A DNA stretch of 64,000 nucleotides from Phycisphaerales bacterium. Its GTDB lineage: Bacteria > Planctomycetota > Phycisphaerae > UBA1845. The notes under the pieces are model-generated. The model searched no databases. It was not told the DNA's origin and worked only from the letters and a program-made list of their open reading frames with translations. Below are positions 33,712 through 51,871 of the stretch, piece by piece (positions within the stretch are counted from its first letter, which is position 1; each line of letters begins with the position of its first letter). Location: contig JADZBE010000032.1 of assembly GCA_020852275.1 (NCBI GenBank), forward strand, positions 62,001-126,000, given 5' to 3'. The translations under genes were made by a program, and so were the position numbers.

Positions 33712-34023
33712 ATGGAAACACGTCGAGAGAAGATCGAACGGATGCTGGCGGCGGAGCCGGCAGACGTGTTCCTCAACTTCGGACTGGCGATGGAGCTGAC
33801 GAAGGAGAAGGCGTTCGAGGCCGCGCTGGCGAGTTTCGACCGCGTCATCTCTCTCGATGCCGATTACACCGCCGCCTACCACCACAAAGCCGCGACGCTC
33901 TCAGCGTTGGGGAGGTATGACGAAGCCCGAGCAACGGTTGACGGAGGCATCCAAGCCGCGCGGCGCATCGGCAACGGCCATGCCGAAAGCGAGCTTCGCG
34001 ATCTGCTCCTGGCGATACCCTGA
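33712..34023 (+). CDS. small TPR protein, 103 residues
   Basis: A soluble helical protein with two TPR-like motifs (VFLNFGLAMELTKEKAFEAALASFDRVISLDADYTAAYHHKAATLSALGRYDEARAT in outline; conserved Gly/Ala/Tyr/Pro-equivalent positions present). It is likely an adaptor or scaffold. The start ATG 33712 is backed by GGGAGGGAGGAA; upstream residues in the same frame come from repeat DNA. The following 240 bases are a MITE-like element. Confidence 0.72.
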   Translation: METRREKIERMLAAEPADVFLNFGLAMELTKEKAFEAALASFDRVISLDADYTAAYHHKAATLSALGRYDEARATVDGGIQAARRIGNGHAESELRDLLLAIP

Positions 34024-34032
34024 CGCAGGCGG

Positions 34033-34210
34033 TCTTGGCAGTTCGTGATGAACGGCGACGCTCGTCCTTCCCGCGCAGGCGGAAATCCAGCTCCGTCATT
34101 CCCGCGAAGGCGGGAATCCAGCCGTGTTCCCACCTGCACTGGACCCCCGCCTGCGCGGGGGTAACGAGCCTGATGTCGGGTTTCGAGTTCCTCCTCGGGC
34201 TGTCAGGTCG
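34033..34210 (+). mobile_element. MITE-like element, copy C
   Basis: The start GGCAGTTCGTGATGAACGG and the end GAGTTCCTCCTCGGGCTGTC are imperfect inverted repeats. Inside lie two CCCGCG..GGCGGGAATCCAG units, a GGACCCCCGCCTGCGCGGGG hairpin near 34141 and the TGTCGGGTTTCGAGTTCC tail. Confidence 0.72.
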
Positions 34211-34265
34211 CTTGCAGCCATTGCCAGCGCGCTCGCACGGGGGTTGAATGCCGCGTTGAGGGAGC

Positions 34266-35636
34266 ATGGGCGAACCAGCGACTCGCTACACCTTTGATCG
34301 CGTTGTGCGGATGGTGCTGACCGCAGTCGGCACGGTCACGTGCTTCCTGCTCGTGCGATACCTTGCCGACGTACTCATTCCGTTCGCGGCCGCGGCGGTT
34401 CTCGCCTACGTGCTCAATCCTCTCGTGACGCTTCTGGCCACGCGCCTGCGGCGCCGTTTTGTGGCCGTGCTTTTGACGCTGGCGGGGATCGGCATCGTCC
34501 TATTCGGATTGACCGTTGCGGCGGCGAGTCTCGCGGTGCGCCAGACGCGCGCGTTCTCGTCAACGATGCGAGCCATGTCCGACTCATACAGGGAGGTGCT
34601 GGAGGCGACGCTCGCCGCGCCCGCGCCCCCACCCTCCGCCCAGGAAGGACAGAACGATGCGGCGCTCGATGCCGGAGCTTCGCGACCGTGGTTTCCGCTT
34701 TTCAGCGAAGTGCGAGAGGCGTTCTCAGAGTTATCGGCGGAAGCCACGGGCCAGCCGGGCGCCGGTCCGGACGGCGCGCCTGGCGTGGCCAGCACCGGGG
34801 AGGGAGGGATGGGCGCAGCCGCGCCGCCGCCGGATGCCTCACAGCGGTACCGCCGGTTTTGGACCCGGCTGTCCAGCACTCGGCTGTTCATCGTCCTTCG
34901 TGACCTGATGCCGGCAGAAGCGGATCTGCTGCAATGGGCGCTGACGCAGGCGAAACGGCTGCTCCAGGGCGGATGGGTGGCGATCACCTCCGGGATCAGC
35001 GCCATCGCGGTGGCGACGACGTACCTCGTGCTGACCGCCGTGTTCCTCTTCTTCCTGCTGCTGGATTATCCGGTCTATGTGCAGATGGGGCGGGATTACC
35101 TTCCCCCGGATTACCGCGAGGAAATTCTCAGCTTCCTGCACGAATTCGACTTTGTATTGCGTCGATATCTGCGAGGGCAGTTCGTCGTGGCGATGCTCAC
35201 GGGGATGATCCTCGCGCTGGGGTTCTCGATCATCGGACTTCCGCTGGCGATACCGATGGGGCTGCTCGTCGGCGCGCTGAACATGGTTCCGTATTTGCAG
35301 TCGATCGCGCTGCCGCCCATGTTGTTCCTGGCATTGATGAGGCCGTTTGAGCACTCAGGGGCGACGCTGGCGGGGTCGATCCTCCTGGTTCTGCTCGTTT
35401 TCGCTGTTACCCAGGTGATACAGGACACGGTGCTGACCCCCCGTATCATGGGCAAGGCCACGGGCCTGAAGCCCGTGGCGATTTTGCTGGGGGTGTTCAT
35501 CTGGGGTAAGTTACTGGGCATGTTGGGTCTGTTGCTGGCGATTCCGCTGACGTCGCTGGGGATCGCGTACTATCGGCGCGTCGTCTTGCGCCATGGGCAT
35601 GAAGCGACGCGACCCTCCACGGTGGGTCCTGCCTGA
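34266..35636 (+). CDS. AI-2E family transporter (PerM/TqsA-like permease)
   Basis: A 456-residue polytopic protein. An N-terminal group of two or three membrane helices (LVRYLADVLIPFAAAAVLAYVLNPLV) and a C-terminal group (residues about 240-430) are typical. The signature region RRYLRGQFVVAMLTGMILALGFSIIGLPLAIPMGLLVGALNMVPYLQS, in outline, is characteristic. A long Ala/Pro/Gly-rich soluble insert lies between the groups at about 115-195 (APPPSAQEGQNDAALDAG). Family members export AI-2 or act as Na+/H+ antiporters. The next gene starts 15 bases downstream and may be in the same operon. Confidence 0.9.
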   Translation: MGEPATRYTFDRVVRMVLTAVGTVTCFLLVRYLADVLIPFAAAAVLAYVLNPLVTLLATRLRRRFVAVLLTLAGIGIVLFGLTVAAASLAVRQTRAFSSTMRAMSDSYREVLEATLAAPAPPPSAQEGQNDAALDAGASRPWFPLFSEVREAFSELSAEATGQPGAGPDGAPGVASTGEGGMGAAAPPPDASQRYRRFWTRLSSTRLFIVLRDLMPAEADLLQWALTQAKRLLQGGWVAITSGISAIAVATTYLVLTAVFLFFLLLDYPVYVQMGRDYLPPDYREEILSFLHEFDFVLRRYLRGQFVVAMLTGMILALGFSIIGLPLAIPMGLLVGALNMVPYLQSIALPPMLFLALMRPFEHSGATLAGSILLVLLVFAVTQVIQDTVLTPRIMGKATGLKPVAILLGVFIWGKLLGMLGLLLAIPLTSLGIAYYRRVVLRHGHEATRPSTVGPA

Positions 35637-36911: not shown

Positions 36912-37664
36912 TCAGCCGCGCGAGTACAGGCGGTCATCGCCGGACAGGAAGCCGTTGGCAGGCCAATTGAGCAGCGCCTCATTCTCCGGAAGCGCGCCCG
37001 GCTTGCGAAAGGGCTGCAGTTTGGCGGCCGCATGACCGTCGCCGAAGCCGACCCGCGTCCCTTTCGCATGGCGAAATGCCTGGGCGCCGGCGTGAACCGT
37101 GCCTTCGGACACGCCTTCATCCAGCGGCGCCCGCATGAACTTGTTCGCCCCCGCGCGATATCCGCCGTCGCCGCACAGCGCCGTCCCCGCCGGACTGCGA
37201 AGCTGGGCGGTCATCGCCGGTGACTCGTCCATCCCGTGGAACGGGCCTTCGTTCTGCCCGCGGCCGATGTAGGTCGTGTTGTAGTTGTAGCCGGTGAACG
37301 GATCGCCCAGCGAAAGATTCGGGCCTTCGTACACGGGGCACTGCTGCACCTCGCCGCCGTCGGCGAACTCCCAGATCAGCCCCGCTCGCGCGCGCCGCTC
37401 GCCGGACCACGGCGTGATCGTGTCCCACGCGACAAATTCACGATGCTGCTCGTCCACATACTGCGCGATCGGGAATCGATCGGCGTAGTCGTGCGAATAC
37501 GCGGACATGGCCGTGACGATCTGACGCAGGTTGGAGGCGCACTGCACGCTCCTGGCCTGCGCTCGCGCCCGCGCAAACGAGGGCAGCAGCAACGAGATCA
37601 GCAGCGCAATGATCGCAACGACGACGAGAACTTCGATCAGGGAGAACGCCGGCTGGGGTTTCAC
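36912..37664 (-). CDS. pseudopilin-like secreted protein (third gene of the B12-riboswitch locus)
   Basis: A 250-residue protein. The prepilin-type N-terminus KPQPAFSLIEVLVVVAIIA gives methylation-site F/S-L-I-E and one membrane helix. The exported part contains Tyr/Asn-rich beta segments and ends with H-A-K-G-T-R-V-G-F-G-D-G-H, like the H-x9-DG motif of planctomycete pseudopilin families. The start is taken as GTG 37664; the frame is open back to GTG 37904, overlapping the previous gene, but its extra 80 residues come mostly from a dispersed repeat. It lies downstream of the cobalamin riboswitch on the same strand. Confidence 0.75.
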   Translation of the reverse strand: MKPQPAFSLIEVLVVVAIIALLISLLLPSFARARAQARSVQCASNLRQIVTAMSAYSHDYADRFPIAQYVDEQHREFVAWDTITPWSGERRARAGLIWEFADGGEVQQCPVYEGPNLSLGDPFTGYNYNTTYIGRGQNEGPFHGMDESPAMTAQLRSPAGTALCGDGGYRAGANKFMRAPLDEGVSEGTVHAGAQAFRHAKGTRVGFGDGHAAAKLQPFRKPGALPENEALLNWPANGFLSGDDRLYSRG

Positions 37665-37719
37665 TCCGCGCCGTCCGCACCCGGCGCTGCGCGCGGGAGG
37701 TTTCGCGTCGCCCGCATGA

Positions 37720-37870
37720 CCGAGCCGCGCCCGTAAGGGAGCGATCCCCTCGGTGTCGATTCGTGTCCGCTCCCTCGCGGTCGCGGCTCCGAAGCACTCG
37801 CTCGCTTGAGGTGCGCGACGGACGACGGGAGCCTTGCTTCTCGCGCCGCGCTTGGGTCGCGAGCCTTTGC
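37720..37870. repeat. GAGCCGCGCCCGTAAGGGAGCG inverted-pair repeat
   Basis: A GAGCCGCGCCCGTAAGGG copy near 37725 faces a CGCTCCCTCGCGGTCGCGGC copy near 37770. GCGCGACGGACGACGGGAGCC follows. Relatives are at 23378 and 44700. It occupies the gap between the second and third genes of the riboswitch locus. Confidence 0.6.
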
Positions 37871-37885
37871 GCGTCCAGGTCGGAT

Positions 37886-38866
37886 TCACCGCGGTCCACT
37901 CCACGTCGCGTGCATGATCGCGTAGTCGTCGAAGTCCACGTCGCCGTCCGCGTCAAAATTGGCGGATCGGCACTCGCAGCGACCCACGCCACCCCCGCTG
38001 CCCGTCCAGCATTCCTGCAGCCGGGCGAAATCGACGAGGTCCACGTCGCCGTCGCGGTCCACGTCGCCCGAGGCCGCCGGCGCCGGCGCGACGTCCGCCA
38101 GCGCGTCCACCTCCCCGCCCTCGCTGGTCAGGTAAACATATTGAATGGACTCAAACCCGCTGGCGGCAAGGTCGAAGCCCGTGCCGCCGCCGCTGATCCC
38201 GTACAGCCCGATCGCCTCGGCCGCGCTGCCCCCGACAAAGTCCCCGTTGCCCAGCGCTGGATCGACGGGTTGACAGAAGTCAGCTTCCGCCGCCCACGCG
38301 CCGGCGCACTCGTCCCACAGGAACGCATTCGTTGGAAAGAGTCCGTCCGCGTGCGGACCCGCATCGAAGACGTGCCATTCCTCCGGGTGGGAGAAGGGAT
38401 CGCCCATGCCCGACGTGCTGACGGCTACCGTCACCGGTTCGCTGAACGCGCCGCCGATGATCGAGACCGCGCCCATGTCGCTGTCCGGGTCGATGATGCC
38501 ATCCGCCGGGAAGAACGCGTTGCCGAACACGATCAAGTCCACACCGAACGCGTTGCGCGGGTCGTCCTCGACCGGCTCGTCGAAGCGCACTTTGATGAAC
38601 TCGCCGCGGCGCAGCGTCACCACCGTCTTGCGGCCCTGTTCATCGCGGTTGACGGCGGCGGACACGACGGATGCGCGAAACACATCGCCGGAGAAGGGGT
38701 CGATAAACGTGCGCGTCGGCTCGCCCAGCAGCGACTCGGGATCGTTGTACAAGCCGGATCCGTCCAGCGACGCCGACGCATCGACGACGGCGTCCACCCA
38801 CGGATCGGATGCGCAGGCAAACGGGATGAAGCACGAAAGCGCCGCGATCGCGATAAAGATTCTCAT
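37886..38866 (-). CDS. secreted protein with dockerin-like repeats (second gene of the B12-riboswitch locus)
   Basis: A 326-residue protein. Its signal peptide ends near PFACA. A beta-rich domain (about 20-245) has the plan seen in cell-surface proteins with a VxFxNAFF segment (DLIVFGNAFFPADG, then VTVAVSTSGMGDPFSHPEEWHVF). The C-terminus has two dockerin-type calcium loops, GDVDRDGDVDLVDFARLQ and NFDADGDVDFDDYAIM. Dockerin modules bind cohesins or, in planctomycetes, serve as generic Ca-binding ends. The start 38866 has a perfect AAAGGAGG. It begins 20 bases after the stop of the propeller gene, so cotranscription with it under the riboswitch is likely. Confidence 0.82.
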   Translation of the reverse strand: MRIFIAIAALSCFIPFACASDPWVDAVVDASASLDGSGLYNDPESLLGEPTRTFIDPFSGDVFRASVVSAAVNRDEQGRKTVVTLRRGEFIKVRFDEPVEDDPRNAFGVDLIVFGNAFFPADGIIDPDSDMGAVSIIGGAFSEPVTVAVSTSGMGDPFSHPEEWHVFDAGPHADGLFPTNAFLWDECAGAWAAEADFCQPVDPALGNGDFVGGSAAEAIGLYGISGGGTGFDLAASGFESIQYVYLTSEGGEVDALADVAPAPAASGDVDRDGDVDLVDFARLQECWTGSGGGVGRCECRSANFDADGDVDFDDYAIMHATWSGPR

Positions 38867-38886
38867 AACGTCGCCTCCTTTCGTGC

Positions 38887-40137
38887 TTACGGGCAGATCA
38901 CCACGAGGGAGTCGACACAAACCGCGGGGTCGGTCAGCGCGACGACGTGTTCACCCACCGCGGCCTGAATCGCGCGCCATCGCGCGACGCGGCCTTCGAC
39001 GAATGCGCGATAGGGCGCGTCGTCCACGGCGACATACAGGACAGCGCCGTGATGCGACGCATTCGTCAGCCGCACGCGTGCCCGCAACTTGCCGCCGGCT
39101 CCGCACCGCGCGCGGAATCGGGTGAGTTCCTCGCATGAAATGCCGGCCGGCTGCGCGTACACAAACGCCGAGGAGGTCCATGCGTCGCGCACCAGCCACT
39201 CGTGCGTCGCGGCGTTGTACGTGGCGTCGTACCAGTTGAACTCGTTGCCGGCGTCGGGATCGACGGCGCGAACCTCCCGCGGGTCGCCGCCGTCAGCCGG
39301 TCCTTTGCCCGCCCACGCGCCTTTCACCGCCTCCGCGGACACGAGGCCCGCGTAGTCGACGTCGCCGGTGTCAAAGTCTCCGCCGCCCACGTGGAGGTTG
39401 TCCGCCTCATCGAACCCCAGTGAAGCGGCAGAGAGCAAGTCGCAGATCAGCGTGCCCTCGGTCTCGTAGTCGATCGGCGGATCGCCCGAGAGCACGCCCT
39501 GCCAGCGCGTTCCTGAAAAGCCTTTGACCCAGCCGGTCTCGCTGGGTCCGCCGCCCGTCAGACCCGTCCCGGTATACAGGTTGCCCGCGCGGTCGAACGT
39601 CAGCCCGGCGGACACGGGCCCGCCCGTGACGATCAACGGGTTTATCGGGTGCTTCGGGTCGCTGGTCGTGTCCAGCAGCGCCACGTCTCCTCCCGCGCGG
39701 ATGGCGAGCTGCACCTCGTCATACCACTCGGCCTCGTAGTGCGGCAGGTTGAACCAGACGCCGGAGCCGTCGCTGAATGTGAAAACGCCGACGGCGTCGA
39801 AGCTGTTGCCCACGGTGAATCGCGTTCCATCCGGCGAGACGCGGATGAACGCGGGGTACACGATCGGCGCGCCGTCGCCCGTGAGCGCGCCCCAGAAGAT
39901 GAACCGCCGCGCGCCGGCTCCGACCTCGATGTGTACGTCATTCGCCGCCAGAACGACCAGTCGCCCATCCGGCAGGGCGTCGAACATGTCCTGGAACGCC
40001 CCGGCGGTAGGCAGCGCCACGCGACCGCGCAACGCATAAGCCGCAATGTCCGAGGCGCGCAAAGACGCCTGCCCCGAGAATCCCGACACGACCGCCAGCA
40101 GGCCGACATGAACTGGCCGGCTCGAAACACGAACCAT
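38887..40137 (-). CDS. secreted beta-propeller-like protein directly under a cobalamin riboswitch
   Basis: A 416-residue protein. Its signal peptide lies at about 8-28. Repeated beta-propeller-type strand motifs follow (FIRVSPDGTRFTVGNSF, LAIRAGGDVALLDTT, GLTFDRAGNLYTGTGL, SLGFDEADNLHVGGGD). The final approximately 80 residues match the Cys-containing domain shared with 32018 and 46735. The ATG at 40137 has AAGGAGGA 6-13 bases upstream. The B12 riboswitch and terminator lie just before it. By analogy with BtuG, a propeller that captures cobalamin at the bacterial surface, B12 binding is a reasonable but untested guess. It is cotranscribed with the dockerin protein. Confidence 0.85.
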   Translation of the reverse strand: MVRVSSRPVHVGLLAVVSGFSGQASLRASDIAAYALRGRVALPTAGAFQDMFDALPDGRLVVLAANDVHIEVGAGARRFIFWGALTGDGAPIVYPAFIRVSPDGTRFTVGNSFDAVGVFTFSDGSGVWFNLPHYEAEWYDEVQLAIRAGGDVALLDTTSDPKHPINPLIVTGGPVSAGLTFDRAGNLYTGTGLTGGGPSETGWVKGFSGTRWQGVLSGDPPIDYETEGTLICDLLSAASLGFDEADNLHVGGGDFDTGDVDYAGLVSAEAVKGAWAGKGPADGGDPREVRAVDPDAGNEFNWYDATYNAATHEWLVRDAWTSSAFVYAQPAGISCEELTRFRARCGAGGKLRARVRLTNASHHGAVLYVAVDDAPYRAFVEGRVARWRAIQAAVGEHVVALTDPAVCVDSLVVICP

Positions 40138-40183
40138 GACGTCCTCCTTCGTGCAAGGGCGCAGCTCCCGTGCGCCCGGACCC

Positions 40184-40221
40184 AAAAAGAAATCCCGGCG
40201 CCTCAGACCTGAAGCGCCGGG
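40184..40221 (-). terminator. expression-platform terminator of the cobalamin riboswitch
   Basis: On the minus strand CCCGGCGCTTCA pairs with TGAGGCGCCGGG across GGTC (40193-40221). ATTTCTTTTT follows (40192-40184). It lies 47 bases before the start of the propeller gene. This suggests control by premature termination when B12 is bound. Confidence 0.88.
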
Positions 40222-40349
40222 ACCGTTGCACGTGAAGGAAAGTCCGCCCGCATCGCCGCGGCCATCCCCGCGTTTGCGGCGATCTGCCCCGGCGGCAGGT
40301 GGAAAAACTCCGTGTCGGTCGCGGCATCCGTCCCCGAGGCGCCACTCCC

Positions 40350-40540
40350 GCACGCGATCACAGGCAGGTTTTCTGGTTTACGGATCGTCCTACCGGCCAA
40401 GCCTTCTCCGCGCGGCGGGCGGGATGCCCGTGTTGCACGAATGGCGTGATTTGGCTTTCGTCCCCGATTACAGCGGCGGGTCCACGGTGGATTCGCACCA
40501 CCTTCCCTCTTCATCCGCCTCAACGGCGGACACCCGCGAT
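40350..40540 (-). promoter_or_regulatory. cobalamin (B12) riboswitch
   Basis: On the minus strand the aptamer core is complete. GGGAAGGTGGTGCGAATCC (40507-40489) is the 5' conserved stem-loop. CCGCCGCTGTAATCGGGGA follows, then a variable arm, GCCATTC, CATCCCGCCC, the GAAGGC receptor stem, and the B12 box AACCAGAAAACCTGCC near 40377-40362. These elements are in the order and spacing of the B12-element family. Repression in the presence of adenosylcobalamin or hydroxocobalamin is expected. Genes downstream are exported proteins rather than B12 biosynthesis or transport genes. Confidence 0.92.
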
Positions 40541-40607
40541 CGCGGAAGATTCACTTGTCAATGTCGCGCCTCAGCCGCAGGAGCCGCAGCTTGGACGCGA
40601 CGCATCG

Positions 40608-40635
40608 AGCCTAACGCGCCCCGACTCCCCGTCAA
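40608..40635 (-). promoter_or_regulatory. candidate promoter of the riboswitch locus
   Basis: On the minus strand TTGACG (40635-40630) and TAGGCT (40613-40608) are 16 bases apart. Transcription would start near 40600, about 70 bases before the riboswitch aptamer. Confidence 0.5.
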
Positions 40636-40807
40636 CCGCCGAGCGGTGGAAACGTCGCCGTGGGTGCGGCCGCGGATTCTACCAAGCGGGTCAGGGGTCC
40701 CGGCAAAGCGGCGTGTCGGGTGCGGGAATTGCAGAAACAAAGCCTGAGCGGCATGGTCTGCTCCCGGGAACGGCCACACCCCGCTTGTTTCGGGTGCGGA
40801 GGCGGCG

Positions 40808-42415: not shown

Positions 42416-44428
42416 CTACCCGGGCACGCGCGTCGGCAGGATGACCATCGTCAACCCCGCCCAGTGCAGCCGCTTCTGCAGCGCGAAGGCCGTCTGGTTG
42501 TGCAGCAGCGGCTGATACCAGCGCTCGCGCTGGAAGACCAACTGCCCGGCGAAGAATGTGACGCGCGGAAACTCCTGCGCCACCTGCTCGCAGACTTTCT
42601 CCAGTTCGGTGATGACGTCGGTGGCCATCGACGTGCGCGACGTGGCGGGGATGCCGTGCGCCTGCACGAAGTCCACGTAGCGCTGCAGGTCCTGCTCGGT
42701 GCGGCGGCGCTGCTCTTCGATGACGGTCTCGGCCCGGAACGCGCCGGAGTCCACCGCGCTGACGGATACGAACACGACGTTCTTGAATTGGGAGGGGAAG
42801 TTCTTGAACGCCGTCATGATGGTGTGAATGCCCAGACCGCTGTACCCGCCGACGAGCACGGCCGCGGTGGGCTGGTGCGGATCGAGCTTGCCGGGGGCGA
42901 CGCGCGGGAGGCGCGGGTTGGCGATGAGTCCGGCAAACAGCGCCGAAAGACGCTGATTCAGCGTGCGGTAGTGCCGGCGGATCCAGAAGCACAGCGCGAT
43001 GAGACCGCCGGTGATCACCAGCGTGATCCAGCCGCCCTGAAGAAACTTCTCAAGGACGGTGACGATCAGGATCGTCAGGCACATGCCCAGTCCCGCCACG
43101 TGGATCGTGTTTCGCTTTTTCCAGTCTGGGCGCTCCCGCCTGCGCTCCCACCACAGCCGCACCATCGAAAGCTCGGTCATCGAGAAGGTGATGAACACGT
43201 TGATGCTGTACATGACGACGATGTGGCGGACGTCGCCCCTTGTGTACACCAGCGCCGCCAGCGACGCGAGACCCATCATCAGGATGCCGTTCTGCGTGGT
43301 CAGCCGATCGGACAATGAGGCGAACCGGCGCGGAACCCAGGAGTCCAACGCCATGTTCGAGAGCACGCGCGGTCCGTCCGTGAAGCCCGCCTGCGCCGCC
43401 ACGACGAGGATCGCCCCCTCGGCCGCCAGGGTCAGGATGACGAAGATGCCTCCCAGCGGCACGACTTCGACAAAACGCTCCACGAGCACGGCGTTGAGCG
43501 TCTTGCCCTCAACGAACGTCACGTCCCACAGCAGATAGTTGAAGAGCAGCCCGCCCGCGGTGAGTGCCAGCGACGCCGCCATGTACACCATGGTGCGCTT
43601 GCCGGTCTGCACGCGCGGCTCGCGCATGATGCTCAGCCCGTTGGAGACGGCTTCAATTCCCGTGTACGTGCCGCCGCCCAGCGAATAGGCGTGCGTGAAG
43701 AGCAGGAGCAGACCTCCGAATCCCAGCGTCGACAACCCGCCGGAAAAACCGGTCGAGGCTTCCTTCAGCATTCCGGGGAATTGCGGCGCCTTGATCGCGA
43801 TGCCGACGCCGATCAGGACGGCGTGGGTCAGGACGAAGAGAAGAAAGAAAGGCGTGAGGGTCAGGACCGACTCCTTCGTGCCGCGCAGATTGAGCAGCGT
43901 CAGTGCGACGATGGTCAGCACTTCCGCGGGGAGCTTCATTTCGTGCCAGGGGAGCGGCAGGAAACTGAAGAGCGCGTCGCCCGCGGCGGCGATGGATATC
44001 GTGATGGTCAGGACGTAGTCCACCAGCAGCGCGCAGCCGGAGACGACGCCCGCCTTGTCGCCGAGCAGCTTCGTCGCCACCAGGTAACCGCCGCCGCCCT
44101 GCGGAAACTCCTCGATGACCCCGCTGTACGCGATGGAAATGACGATCACCGTCGTGGCCGTCACCACCGCGAGGGCAATGGCCAAGTACGTGTGGCTGCC
44201 GAGCGTGCGGAAGGCCTCCTCAGGTCCGTACGCCGATGAGGACAGCCCATCCGCGCCCAGCCCCACCCAGGCGAGAAACGCGACAATGGAGAGGCGATGA
44301 AAAACGCGGCGATCGCGCAGATCGCGCGGCGGACCGAGCACCAGGCGCTTGCCTCGATCGAACCAGGTCGGTTCTTCTTGCGGGGGGGGCGGCAACGGGC
44401 CATCCGACAACGGGGTCGGATCGCTCAT
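42416..44428 (-). CDS. KimA-like APC-superfamily permease (probable potassium transporter)
   Basis: A 670-residue protein. About 12 membrane helices (about residues 45-500) include the unwound-helix motif FLAWVGLGADGLSSSAYGPEEAF of KimA/YdaO-type transporters, AVVTATTVIVISIAYS and FTHAYSLGGGTYTGIEAVSN. A C-terminal cytosolic domain (about 500-670; AAVLVGGYSGLGIHTIMTAFKNFP) is universal-stress-protein-like. KimA is a K+/H+ symporter in which such a domain controls activity, with c-di-AMP inhibition in some species. Substrate here is inferred. A GGAGGAATACC Shine-Dalgarno precedes the ATG 44428. The gene is monocistronic. Confidence 0.85.
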   Translation of the reverse strand: MSDPTPLSDGPLPPPPQEEPTWFDRGKRLVLGPPRDLRDRRVFHRLSIVAFLAWVGLGADGLSSSAYGPEEAFRTLGSHTYLAIALAVVTATTVIVISIAYSGVIEEFPQGGGGYLVATKLLGDKAGVVSGCALLVDYVLTITISIAAAGDALFSFLPLPWHEMKLPAEVLTIVALTLLNLRGTKESVLTLTPFFLLFVLTHAVLIGVGIAIKAPQFPGMLKEASTGFSGGLSTLGFGGLLLLFTHAYSLGGGTYTGIEAVSNGLSIMREPRVQTGKRTMVYMAASLALTAGGLLFNYLLWDVTFVEGKTLNAVLVERFVEVVPLGGIFVILTLAAEGAILVVAAQAGFTDGPRVLSNMALDSWVPRRFASLSDRLTTQNGILMMGLASLAALVYTRGDVRHIVVMYSINVFITFSMTELSMVRLWWERRRERPDWKKRNTIHVAGLGMCLTILIVTVLEKFLQGGWITLVITGGLIALCFWIRRHYRTLNQRLSALFAGLIANPRLPRVAPGKLDPHQPTAAVLVGGYSGLGIHTIMTAFKNFPSQFKNVVFVSVSAVDSGAFRAETVIEEQRRRTEQDLQRYVDFVQAHGIPATSRTSMATDVITELEKVCEQVAQEFPRVTFFAGQLVFQRERWYQPLLHNQTAFALQKRLHWAGLTMVILPTRVPG

Positions 44429-44689
44429 GGTATTCCTCCGGAGAACATCCCTCGTTGAGAGTCGGCCTCCGGCGGTGCCCGGAAGGGTCTCTCTTTCGAC
44501 GCCTGCGGGGTTAGCTGACGGGCTTGGGCCGAAAGAGTTGCCCTACGCCGAACGGCGATGCGCCCTCGACCGACGATGCGCTCCCGAGCGACGATGCGCC
44601 CCGATGAAAAGTGGTTCCCCCGCTCCCGCGCCAGCGAGACTAAGCGCACTTCACGAGGACATGCTAGTTCGCGCCGACGGCGAAGTCAA

Positions 44690-49986: not shown

Positions 49987-50083
49987 CGGGGGTGTCCGGA
50001 CGCCTGGTGGGTCCCGCGGCCTTCAAAGCCGTTGAGGGGTCGTTAGCGCGGCTCCTGGTGGGTTCGATTCCCATCCACTCCCG
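49987..50083 (+). tRNA. selC: tRNA-Sec (anticodon TCA)
   Basis: An about 97-base tRNA with the selenocysteine-specific plan. The acceptor stem has 8 bp (CGGGGGTG with CACTCCCG). There is an extended D-arm region, anticodon arm GCGGCCTTCAAAGCCGT with TCA, a long variable arm (TTGAGGGGTCGTTAGCGCGGCTCC), and T-arm GGTTCGATTCC. It decodes UGA as selenocysteine with SelB. CCA is not encoded. The gene is isolated: no selA, selB, selD or obvious selenoprotein is in the window. A MITE-like end abuts its 3' end. Confidence 0.88.
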
Positions 50084-50494: not shown

Positions 50495-51019
50495 TGCATT
50501 CCGCAGGCACGCTGTCCGAGGACAAGGAGCCAGCCGTTTCGGCGCTGCCACGCCGTCTCCCCGGAAGCTGCAACGCCCGTTTTCTAGCCGGTTCGACAGT
50601 CGGCGTCAAGGGTCTCCAGAACCGCGAATCGCCACCACGCCGCCTCGCCGCGGCAAGTCCAGAGCCGACTGCCCCAAGCGTGAAGGCCGCAACGCCACGC
50701 ATGGGATGCGGCGGTCAAGCGTTCGGGGTCGGCCGCTCGCGCGGGATGTTCGTGCCTGGGAAGGAGAGGGTGAAGCGCCGTCTCCGGTCCCTCCGCCAGC
50801 TCGGCTGCGGGCGAGCGCATGCAGCTTGGATTGCGGACCTCATCGACCTCCACCAGGACGCGCTCCTGTTACTCGCCTCAGGGTAAGCCTGCGTTCACGC
50901 GAATTATCCGTGCTTTTTGGGGACCCTTCCGCAAGACCCGCGCCGGCCGGCGACCTGTGGACTTCCCCCTCCTGAGTCGTAGAATCAACTGCAACCAGTG
51001 GCCACCCGGAGTCCGTGCG
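50495..51019. other. intergenic, no gene recognised
   Basis: Frames on both strands show no family similarity. Promoters for tRNA-Asp (minus strand) and for the next gene (plus strand) are expected here, but no strong consensus was found. Confidence 0.4.
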
Positions 51020-51871
51020 TTGATCTCCAGTGCATCCGTAAGCCCGGCAGCGTCAGGTCGGTCCCCTCTTCCGCACGATTCCAGATCCCTCAGACCGGTC
51101 GGCCGATTCAGGGCGTTCACGCTGATCGAACTGCTCACCGTGATCGCGATTATCAGCCTGCTGATCTCGATCCTGCTGCCGTCCCTGAGCCGCGCGCGGG
51201 AACAGGCCAAGAGCGTCCACTGCCTCGCCCGGCTCAAGGAAATGGGCAACGCGCTGGCCGCGTACATGAACAACTTCGGCGGCCAGCTTCCACCCGCCCT
51301 TTGGAACCCGGACCGCAAGAGCCTTGAGCGCGAAACGGACGTCGACTTCGGCTGGTGCGAGATCGTCTGGACGTACGTGTACAGCGATGCGATCAAGGTC
51401 GCCGAGCACTTCCCCGCGCAGCGCAGCGTCCGCGGCGACATCTGGCAGAATTACTTCGAGTGCCGCGCGGCCGGGGAAGGGCAAAGCAGCGGGCACTTCC
51501 GCGTGTACCTGCCCGCGTGGGCGAGCGGCTCGTACGACATTGAGAAGGACGGCCGCTACGGGTACGACACACGGGCGGAGCCGCGCTACAGCGCCGTGAT
51601 CGAACGGGTGCGCATGGTTCTGCCCATCCTCACGGACGCCAACGAGTTCTCCGAACGGGGCGACGGCATCGGCAACGACGACTGCAGCTACATCGACGCC
51701 GCGGAGGCCAACATCGCCGGCAGCACGGGACGCAACGGCAACCGCATCTCCGACCGCCACTACGGCGGGGCGAACTACCTCTTCCCCGACTTCCACGCCG
51801 AGTCCGACCGCAAGCTCCGCGAACGCCTCGCGCAGGACTGGGATCTCAACGGGATCAAGGACATCGAGTGA
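51020..51871 (+). CDS. pseudopilin-like secreted protein
   Basis: A 283-residue protein. The prepilin N-terminal motif RFRAFTLIELLTVIAIISLLIS is near residue 30, followed by ILLPSLSRAREQAKSVHCLARLKEMG, the standard planctomycete consensus after the membrane helix. The exported part ends with ISDRHYGGANYLFPDFHAESD, an H-x9-DF-H variant of the H-x9-DG motif. The start is assigned to TTG 51020 because CCGGAG lies at the right distance; the frame is open further upstream. It is possibly assembled by a type II secretion/pilus-like system encoded elsewhere. Confidence 0.78.
   Translation: MISSASVSPAASGRSPLPHDSRSLRPVGRFRAFTLIELLTVIAIISLLISILLPSLSRAREQAKSVHCLARLKEMGNALAAYMNNFGGQLPPALWNPDRKSLERETDVDFGWCEIVWTYVYSDAIKVAEHFPAQRSVRGDIWQNYFECRAAGEGQSSGHFRVYLPAWASGSYDIEKDGRYGYDTRAEPRYSAVIERVRMVLPILTDANEFSERGDGIGNDDCSYIDAAEANIAGSTGRNGNRISDRHYGGANYLFPDFHAESDRKLRERLAQDWDLNGIKDIE

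Follow-up and report, generated by a model that had tools for sequence, protein, structure and literature searches.

At ~1,355 Da, vitamin B12 (cobalamin) exceeds what ordinary porins let through, and its uptake by Gram-negative bacteria is known to depend on the TonB-driven transporter BtuB. Cobalamin riboswitches shut genes off when B12 is plentiful. Here we analyze a stretch of 64,000 nucleotides from a Phycisphaerales bacterium of the phylum Planctomycetota (assembly GCA_020852275.1, contig JADZBE010000032.1, positions 62,001 to 126,000; hereafter, the window), in which a cobalamin riboswitch precedes genes for a propeller-like protein (P0001), a protein with a dockerin-like end that is related to the B12-binding protein BtuH (P0002), and a pseudopilin (P0003). 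We propose that this operon is probably a B12-repressed, TonB-independent B12 acquisition module that combines a BtuH-like capture protein with a dedicated pseudopilin. The putative B12-binding part is a new member of a kind already described; what is new is that it is coupled, in bacteria free of TonB receptors, to a pseudopilin under riboswitch control, and we found no paper in the open-access literature that brings together cobalamin riboswitches and either planctomycetes or pilins.

Among the closest described systems are those of Bacteroides, where BtuB, BtuG, BtuH, and BtuJ (DUF4465) systems are known; BtuH binds B12 there, and its gene lies in operons for B12 transport (PMC8941943). Secreted B12-binding proteins also exist in a planctomycete of the class Phycisphaerae (hereafter, the class). 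Mucisphaera contributed one of the DUF4465/BtuJ proteins examined among the B12-binding members of that family (PMC12751083, PMC13398666). DUF4465 was rejected as the identity of the partner proteins described below, none of the proteins scanned having a Pfam match to it. The size limit of ordinary porins lies near 600 Da, and planctomycetes have been reported to bind dextran on pili-like fibres and to take it up into the periplasm in an energy-dependent manner by an unknown machine (PMC5394234). Pseudopilins of the DUF1559 type are encoded by 74 genes in Rhodopirellula baltica (PMC2754498) and form the largest paralog group of Planctopirus limnophila, with 68 members of which two are essential (PMC10632474). 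Their family, PF07596, carries the name SBP_bac_10 and has been described as a solute-binding family (PMC2754498).

The riboswitch operon and its exported proteins

A first-pass annotation of the window placed a complete cobalamin riboswitch at about 40350–40540 on the minus strand. This was borne out by the RF00174 covariance model, which matched 40346–40552 with 112.6 bits (E = 2.1e-27), well above the gathering score of 31.5, and covered the complete aptamer (model positions 1–189). No other RF00174 match occurs in the whole 5.05-Mb genome. The strong intrinsic terminator of the same annotation was likewise recovered, as a 15-pair stem (40224–40191) followed by TCTTTTT between the aptamer and P0001. 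Aptamer and terminator are both kept in three relatives (loci L002, L003, and L058), and the terminator is probably the expression platform of the riboswitch. The promoter proposed at 40635–40608 fared differently, as a scan of 40100–40750 for the sigma-70 consensus returned no sigma-70-like site. From 40552 down to 36912, the minus strand reads riboswitch, terminator, P0001, P0002, and P0003, all three proteins being exported, in agreement with the order originally described (propeller-like protein, dockerin protein, pseudopilin). About 20 bases separate P0001 from P0002 and about 220 separate P0002 from P0003, unless P0003 starts upstream at 37904, in which case the last two genes overlap. 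The features of the locus are as follows.

40608..40635, minus strand: promoter proposed in the first-pass annotation, unconfirmed; absent from the sigma-70 scan
40346..40552, minus strand: cobalamin riboswitch aptamer (RF00174), sole match in the genome
40191..40224, minus strand: intrinsic terminator, probable expression platform; stem and T tail, kept in relatives
38887..40137, minus strand: P0001, secreted propeller-like protein of 416 amino acids with a small C-terminal beta domain; weak propeller matches, riboswitch-linked orthologs
37886..38866, minus strand: P0002, secreted protein of 326 amino acids with a BtuH-like domain and a C-terminal dockerin-like region; fold, profile, and Pfam searches
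38084..38809, minus strand: BtuH-like core of P0002 (residues 20–261), candidate B12-binding domain; matches to 7biz_A and 8blw_B, the former at Foldseek rank 1
38513..38524, minus strand: GNAF motif of P0002 (G115–F118), aligned with Asn399 and Phe401 of BtuH2
37910..38068, minus strand: dockerin type I-like region of P0002 (residues 267–319); PF00404 below gathering score
36912..37664, minus strand: P0003, pseudopilin of DUF1559 type with a prepilin methylation motif; Pfam, upstream start at 37904 possible

Among the three proteins, P0002 is the likely B12 binder, judging from its modeled fold and from profile comparisons. The top match in the Protein Data Bank (PDB) that Foldseek returned for an AlphaFold model of its core (predicted local distance difference test, pLDDT, 61; predicted template modeling score, pTM, 0.62) was 7biz, the B12-bound BtuH2 of Bacteroides thetaiotaomicron (E = 7e-4, probability 1.00). 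VIA-align likewise ranked 7biz first (Z 9.4) and 8blw_B, which is BtuG1/BtuGH, second (Z 9.2); each of these alignments spans the BtuH-type domain, and the match after them reaches 7.6. Direct searches of Pfam, NCBIfam, and PDB with the single sequence and with a P0002-family profile gave no BtuH match; the link at the level of sequence was reached, alongside the fold search, through a riboswitch-linked intermediate. This was a profile of related planctomycete proteins, several of them encoded behind RF00174 riboswitches, which matches 8blw_B at 5e-28 and 7biz at 5.7e-20 and to which hhalign joins the P0002 family with a probability of 98.7 (E = 2.6e-16). The contacts of BtuH2 with B12 include Asn399, Phe401, and Gln333 (PMC8941943), the first two of which fall on the GNAF motif that is invariant in the P0002 family. 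By these comparisons, the core of P0002 is a BtuH-type domain and a relative of a known B12-binding protein, contrary to the earlier statement that none of the three genes is a known B12 gene.

P0002 resembles BtuH not only in its core, which shares with the C-terminal domain of BtuH both the fold and the Asn/Phe contact pair, but also in its setting, a cobalamin-riboswitch operon in which it adjoins a propeller-like gene; some BtuH homologs are fused to a propeller. It differs from BtuH in bearing a dockerin-like region where BtuH has PKD domains, in having no clear lipoprotein signal upon inspection by eye, and in sharing its operon with a pseudopilin. Moreover, btuB is absent from both the operon and the genome, whereas in Bacteroides BtuH usually, though not always, occurs together with btuB. 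The dockerin noted in the first-pass annotation appears at the C-terminus as a dockerin-like region, its Pfam match (PF00404, E = 4.6e-4) falling just under the cut-off, with 20.8 bits against a gathering score of 22.9. In a side observation, a locus from another class (L022 352–2148, genome G011) has, directly behind a cobalamin riboswitch, a gene for a BtuH relative that is lipoprotein-like and, with its PKD domains, shows the architecture of BtuH2.

P0001 was initially compared to BtuG. Sequence searches of Pfam, NCBIfam, and PDB assigned it to no family, and profiles of its relatives gave weak matches to YVTN and WD propellers, which are propellers other than BtuG. Its AlphaFold model was poor (pLDDT 41). 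Given these weak matches and this model, we treat "propeller-like" as a lead and make no claim of BtuG membership; identity with BtuG, for which no sequence or profile match was found, was set aside. The propeller part of the original description has these weak YVTN and WD matches behind it, and the analogy to BtuG found support in no search. The locus does recall BtuG/BtuGH (PDB 8blw) in its arrangement, because a secreted propeller-like gene adjoins a BtuH-type gene, and the protein at locus L004 combines a BtuH-like domain and a PQQ propeller in one chain; it differs in that the window's own propeller has no match to BtuG.

Riboswitch-linked pseudopilins across the class

The gene order of the operon is shared by relatives. 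Relatives of P0002 retrieved by a scan of genome contigs lay behind a cobalamin riboswitch at all four of four loci, and a phylum-wide search with the P0002 profile found loci that also had an RF00174 match in 12 of 16 cases. The order of the window operon was kept at L002, L003, and the same-genus L058, where the riboswitch is followed by a P0001 ortholog, a BtuH-like gene, and a pilin; L005, from another taxonomic order, is arranged otherwise, with the pilin directly after the riboswitch and followed by a small secreted protein and a BtuH-like protein.

RF00174 is present in 151 of the 159 genomes of the class, mostly in one copy, and our survey covered 100 of these riboswitches, from 90 genomes, with as much as 9.4 kb read behind each. 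A sense-strand pilin (at least 60 bits, within 6 kb) was found at 74 of the 100 riboswitches, and at 60 of them it was accompanied by a BtuH-like protein. The pilin was present at 72 of the 89 loci for which 3.8 kb of sequence or more was available. In control DNA from the same genomes (798 kb), the pilin profile gave eight matches of at least 60 bits, a general prepilin signature occurred 0.053 times per 5 kb and strand, and the BtuH-like profiles gave no match apart from one of 26 bits to a variant profile. In a held-out set of 20 loci that were read once the profiles had been fixed, all 20 had the pilin and 13 a BtuH-like protein. The pseudopilin, rather than the propeller, is the most constant part of the system, and it recurs in other planctomycete classes.

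P0003 is a member of this riboswitch-linked group. As the first-pass annotation had it, the protein is pseudopilin-like, exceeding the Pfam cut-offs for both PF07963 (N_methyl; 26.5 against 21.2) and PF07596 (DUF1559; 29.9 against 23.3). On the tree, the riboswitch-linked pilins cluster beyond any of 500 shuffles and apart from background pilins. Constraining all of them to one clade carried no likelihood cost (approximately unbiased test, P = 0.50), which leaves a single clade neither rejected nor proven. A broader pair of motifs, picked after the 74-pilin set had been seen, occurs in 73 of the 74 riboswitch-linked pilins and in 1 of 20 control pilins; a narrow motif, NKFM, was discarded as a mark of the group because it occurs in only 16 of the 74. 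The window holds a second pilin-like open reading frame (ORF; 50819–51868, plus strand; 75.7 bits to the pilin profile), which has no riboswitch and is not close to the B12-linked pilins on the tree.

Several of the riboswitch-pilin operons contain genes for B12 transport and salvage. L098 encodes two BtuH-like variants, the pilin, and btuF, btuD, and btuC behind its riboswitch, and L140 encodes a small secreted protein, a BtuH-like protein, the pilin, cobT, cobC, btuF, btuD, and btuC. In at least 16 genomes, a riboswitch has a FecCD/BtuC-type gene no more than 10 kb away. Of the 20 loci read outside the class, 10 start with a pilin, including L237 (pilin, cobC, cobU, cobT, cobS, btuF) and L238 (pilin, bluB, cobyric acid synthase, cobO, cobT), both from other classes, in which the pilin alone is the first gene and no co-encoded capture protein was detected. 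Other out-of-class loci start with a TonB receptor (L249, L250, L252, and L256 by Pfam; L246 by eye) or with a secreted protein, some of these being propellers (L245 and L255 by Pfam, others weakly). The pilin-less riboswitches of the class mostly stand before salvage genes or before genes for ribonucleotide reductases, MetE, radical-SAM proteins, or TonB receptors; one of these receptors comes closest to the BtuB model TIGR01779. Some other pilin-less loci are truncated by contig ends.

Other neighbors recur in these operons. A small secreted family with a motif around FGYxWxGxxTxxDALLAI lies between the cobalamin riboswitch and the pilin (L016 820–1374; L086 6846–7691, minus strand; L072 7140–7823, minus strand); PEP-CTERM is its only Pfam domain, and the family may be another B12 binder. 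Downstream of the B12-pilin operon there is often a comF-like gene (at the ends of L008, L014, and L017 and also at L132 and L152), which may reflect competence-like machinery or chance synteny. In five related genomes (L064, L066, L073, L074, and L081), a mutS2-like gene follows the pilin.

A proposed outer-membrane route and competing explanations

Neither plug nor barrel models found a TonB-dependent receptor in the window genome, and the same models detected the positive controls. The genome encodes MetH, five secretins, and a btuF-btuD-btuC operon (L166 3629–7027); CbiC, a marker of de novo cobalamin synthesis, is absent from it. Across the class, a TonB receptor is lacking in 98 of 159 genomes, and FecCD permease is present in 158 of 159. 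Considering genomes with untruncated loci, a riboswitch-linked pilin is found in 45 of 48 without a TonB receptor and in 25 of 31 with one. BtuB, which the window genome lacks along with every other TonB-dependent receptor, takes the same regulatory position, as target of the cobalamin riboswitch, in a few related genomes (L114, L147, and L151), and these TonB-receptor-led riboswitch loci have no pilin. In G209, G261, and G296, a pilin was found behind the other riboswitch of the genome, and G057 has TonB-receptor and pilin loci on separate riboswitches. In G220, G310, and G407, the riboswitch leads a TonB receptor and the loci read (for G407, one of its two riboswitches) have no pilin.

The first-pass annotation envisaged a B12-responsive surface capture set, a model whose core the comparative evidence supports well, with the amendments that the likely binder is the dockerin protein rather than the propeller and that the pilin is the most constant member. 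In the working that we infer for it, scarcity of B12 would cause the riboswitch to let transcription through the terminator, and the three exported proteins would be made. P0002, anchored by its dockerin, would bind B12 at the cell surface with the propeller-like P0001 as its partner. The pseudopilin would probably stand in for BtuB in this TonB-receptor-free planctomycete, presenting the B12-loaded capture protein to a secretin-type outer-membrane machine or dragging it through. Once in the periplasm, the vitamin would be imported by BtuF and BtuCD, whose genes lie elsewhere in the genome. That a B12-switched pilin recurs across the whole class suggests that these bacteria may take up B12 by a pilus-based system. 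The binding of dextran to pili-like fibres, together with the abundance of DUF1559 proteins of unknown function, makes a pilin-based route plausible, a step that we infer. The locus resembles the planctomycete DUF1559 pseudopilins and pili-like uptake fibres (PMC5394234) in that P0003 is of the DUF1559 type; it differs in that riboswitch and operon context link one group of pilins to one small ligand.

Several observations weigh against this acquisition model. The btuFDC operon of the window genome lies on another contig, outside the riboswitch operon. A riboswitch-linked pilin is also carried by 26 of the 35 genomes that have some TonB receptor, which means that the pilin is not a simple mirror of TonB; a strict rule of pilins only where TonB is missing was ruled out on these grounds. 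Most TonB receptors of pilin-bearing genomes may serve other ligands. At the level of the binder, the model of the P0002 core is of moderate confidence by its pLDDT, Gln333 of BtuH2 is not kept, and the remaining B12 contacts cannot be aligned confidently. B12 may also be admitted passively by a large pore, and the pseudopilin could serve the export of its partners.

This last possibility, in which the capture proteins leave the cell through a type II secretion-like machine of which the pseudopilin is a part and B12 crosses the outer membrane by other means, is in our judgment unlikely. In its favor are the very large numbers of DUF1559 pseudopilins in planctomycetes (PMC2754498, PMC10632474), the five secretins, and the dockerin or PEP-CTERM tails of the partner proteins. 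Against it stand L237 and L238, where the pilin heads a B12 salvage operon with no capture protein encoded beside it, so that export of partners cannot be its sole role; B12 control of a general secretion pilin would, moreover, be odd. Rather unlikely, in our view, is a role of the pseudopilin itself as the B12-binding subunit, with the DUF1559 C-terminal domain as a solute-binding module on the filament and the BtuH-like protein and propeller as accessories. The description of PF07596 as a solute-binding family (PMC2754498) and the several loci that have a pilin without a BtuH-like partner agree with such a role, but it is the BtuH-like domain that is related to a proven B12 binder.

A B12-regulated operon that takes up nothing and has another purpose, such as attachment to surfaces or formation of biofilms when B12 is limiting, would fit the general use of propeller, dockerin, and pilin proteins as building blocks of the cell surface. 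We consider it very unlikely, because btuFDC and cob genes share the operon in relatives, P0002 is akin to BtuH, and pilin-less riboswitch loci mostly hold classical B12 genes. Chance proximity of the riboswitch to abundant pilin and surface genes, pilin genes being common in planctomycetes (PMC2754498, PMC10632474), is refuted by the control counts (pilins at 74 of 100 riboswitches and at all 20 held-out loci, versus prepilin signatures at about 0.05 per 5 kb and strand) and has next to no probability.

Outside the operon, the window contains a second riboswitch, of the cyclic di-AMP class (RF00379, 78.3 bits; 44484–44656, minus strand), immediately 5′ of an ORF for an APC/KUP-like transporter (42416–44428, minus strand). 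A selenocysteine tRNA (RF01852, 66.3 bits; 49988–50082, plus strand) suggests that the lineage probably makes selenoproteins. The ORF at 33845–34267 (minus strand) encodes a peptide of the form TPAQAGVQ...WIPAFAGMT, which is typical of translated intergenic repeats; this ORF is probably a repeat and not a gene.

Possible meaning for uptake in planctomycetes

We hold a broader proposal tentatively, as an idea that falls a little short of probable. Planctomycetota might import B12 by a TonB-independent, pilus-driven route in which a B12-specific pseudopilin and BtuH-like surface binders carry the vitamin across the outer membrane, and by extension the ~70 DUF1559 paralogs per genome might be ligand-specific uptake pilins. 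If true, such pilins would explain the uncharacterized uptake of macromolecules by planctomycetes. The comparison of genomes reveals a large bacterial group whose B12 switch instead governs a pilin and BtuH-like binders; many members of this group have no TonB receptor. It offers the first specific ligand to test for a member of the huge DUF1559 pseudopilin family and a B12-responsive entry point to how planctomycetes bring large molecules through the outer membrane.

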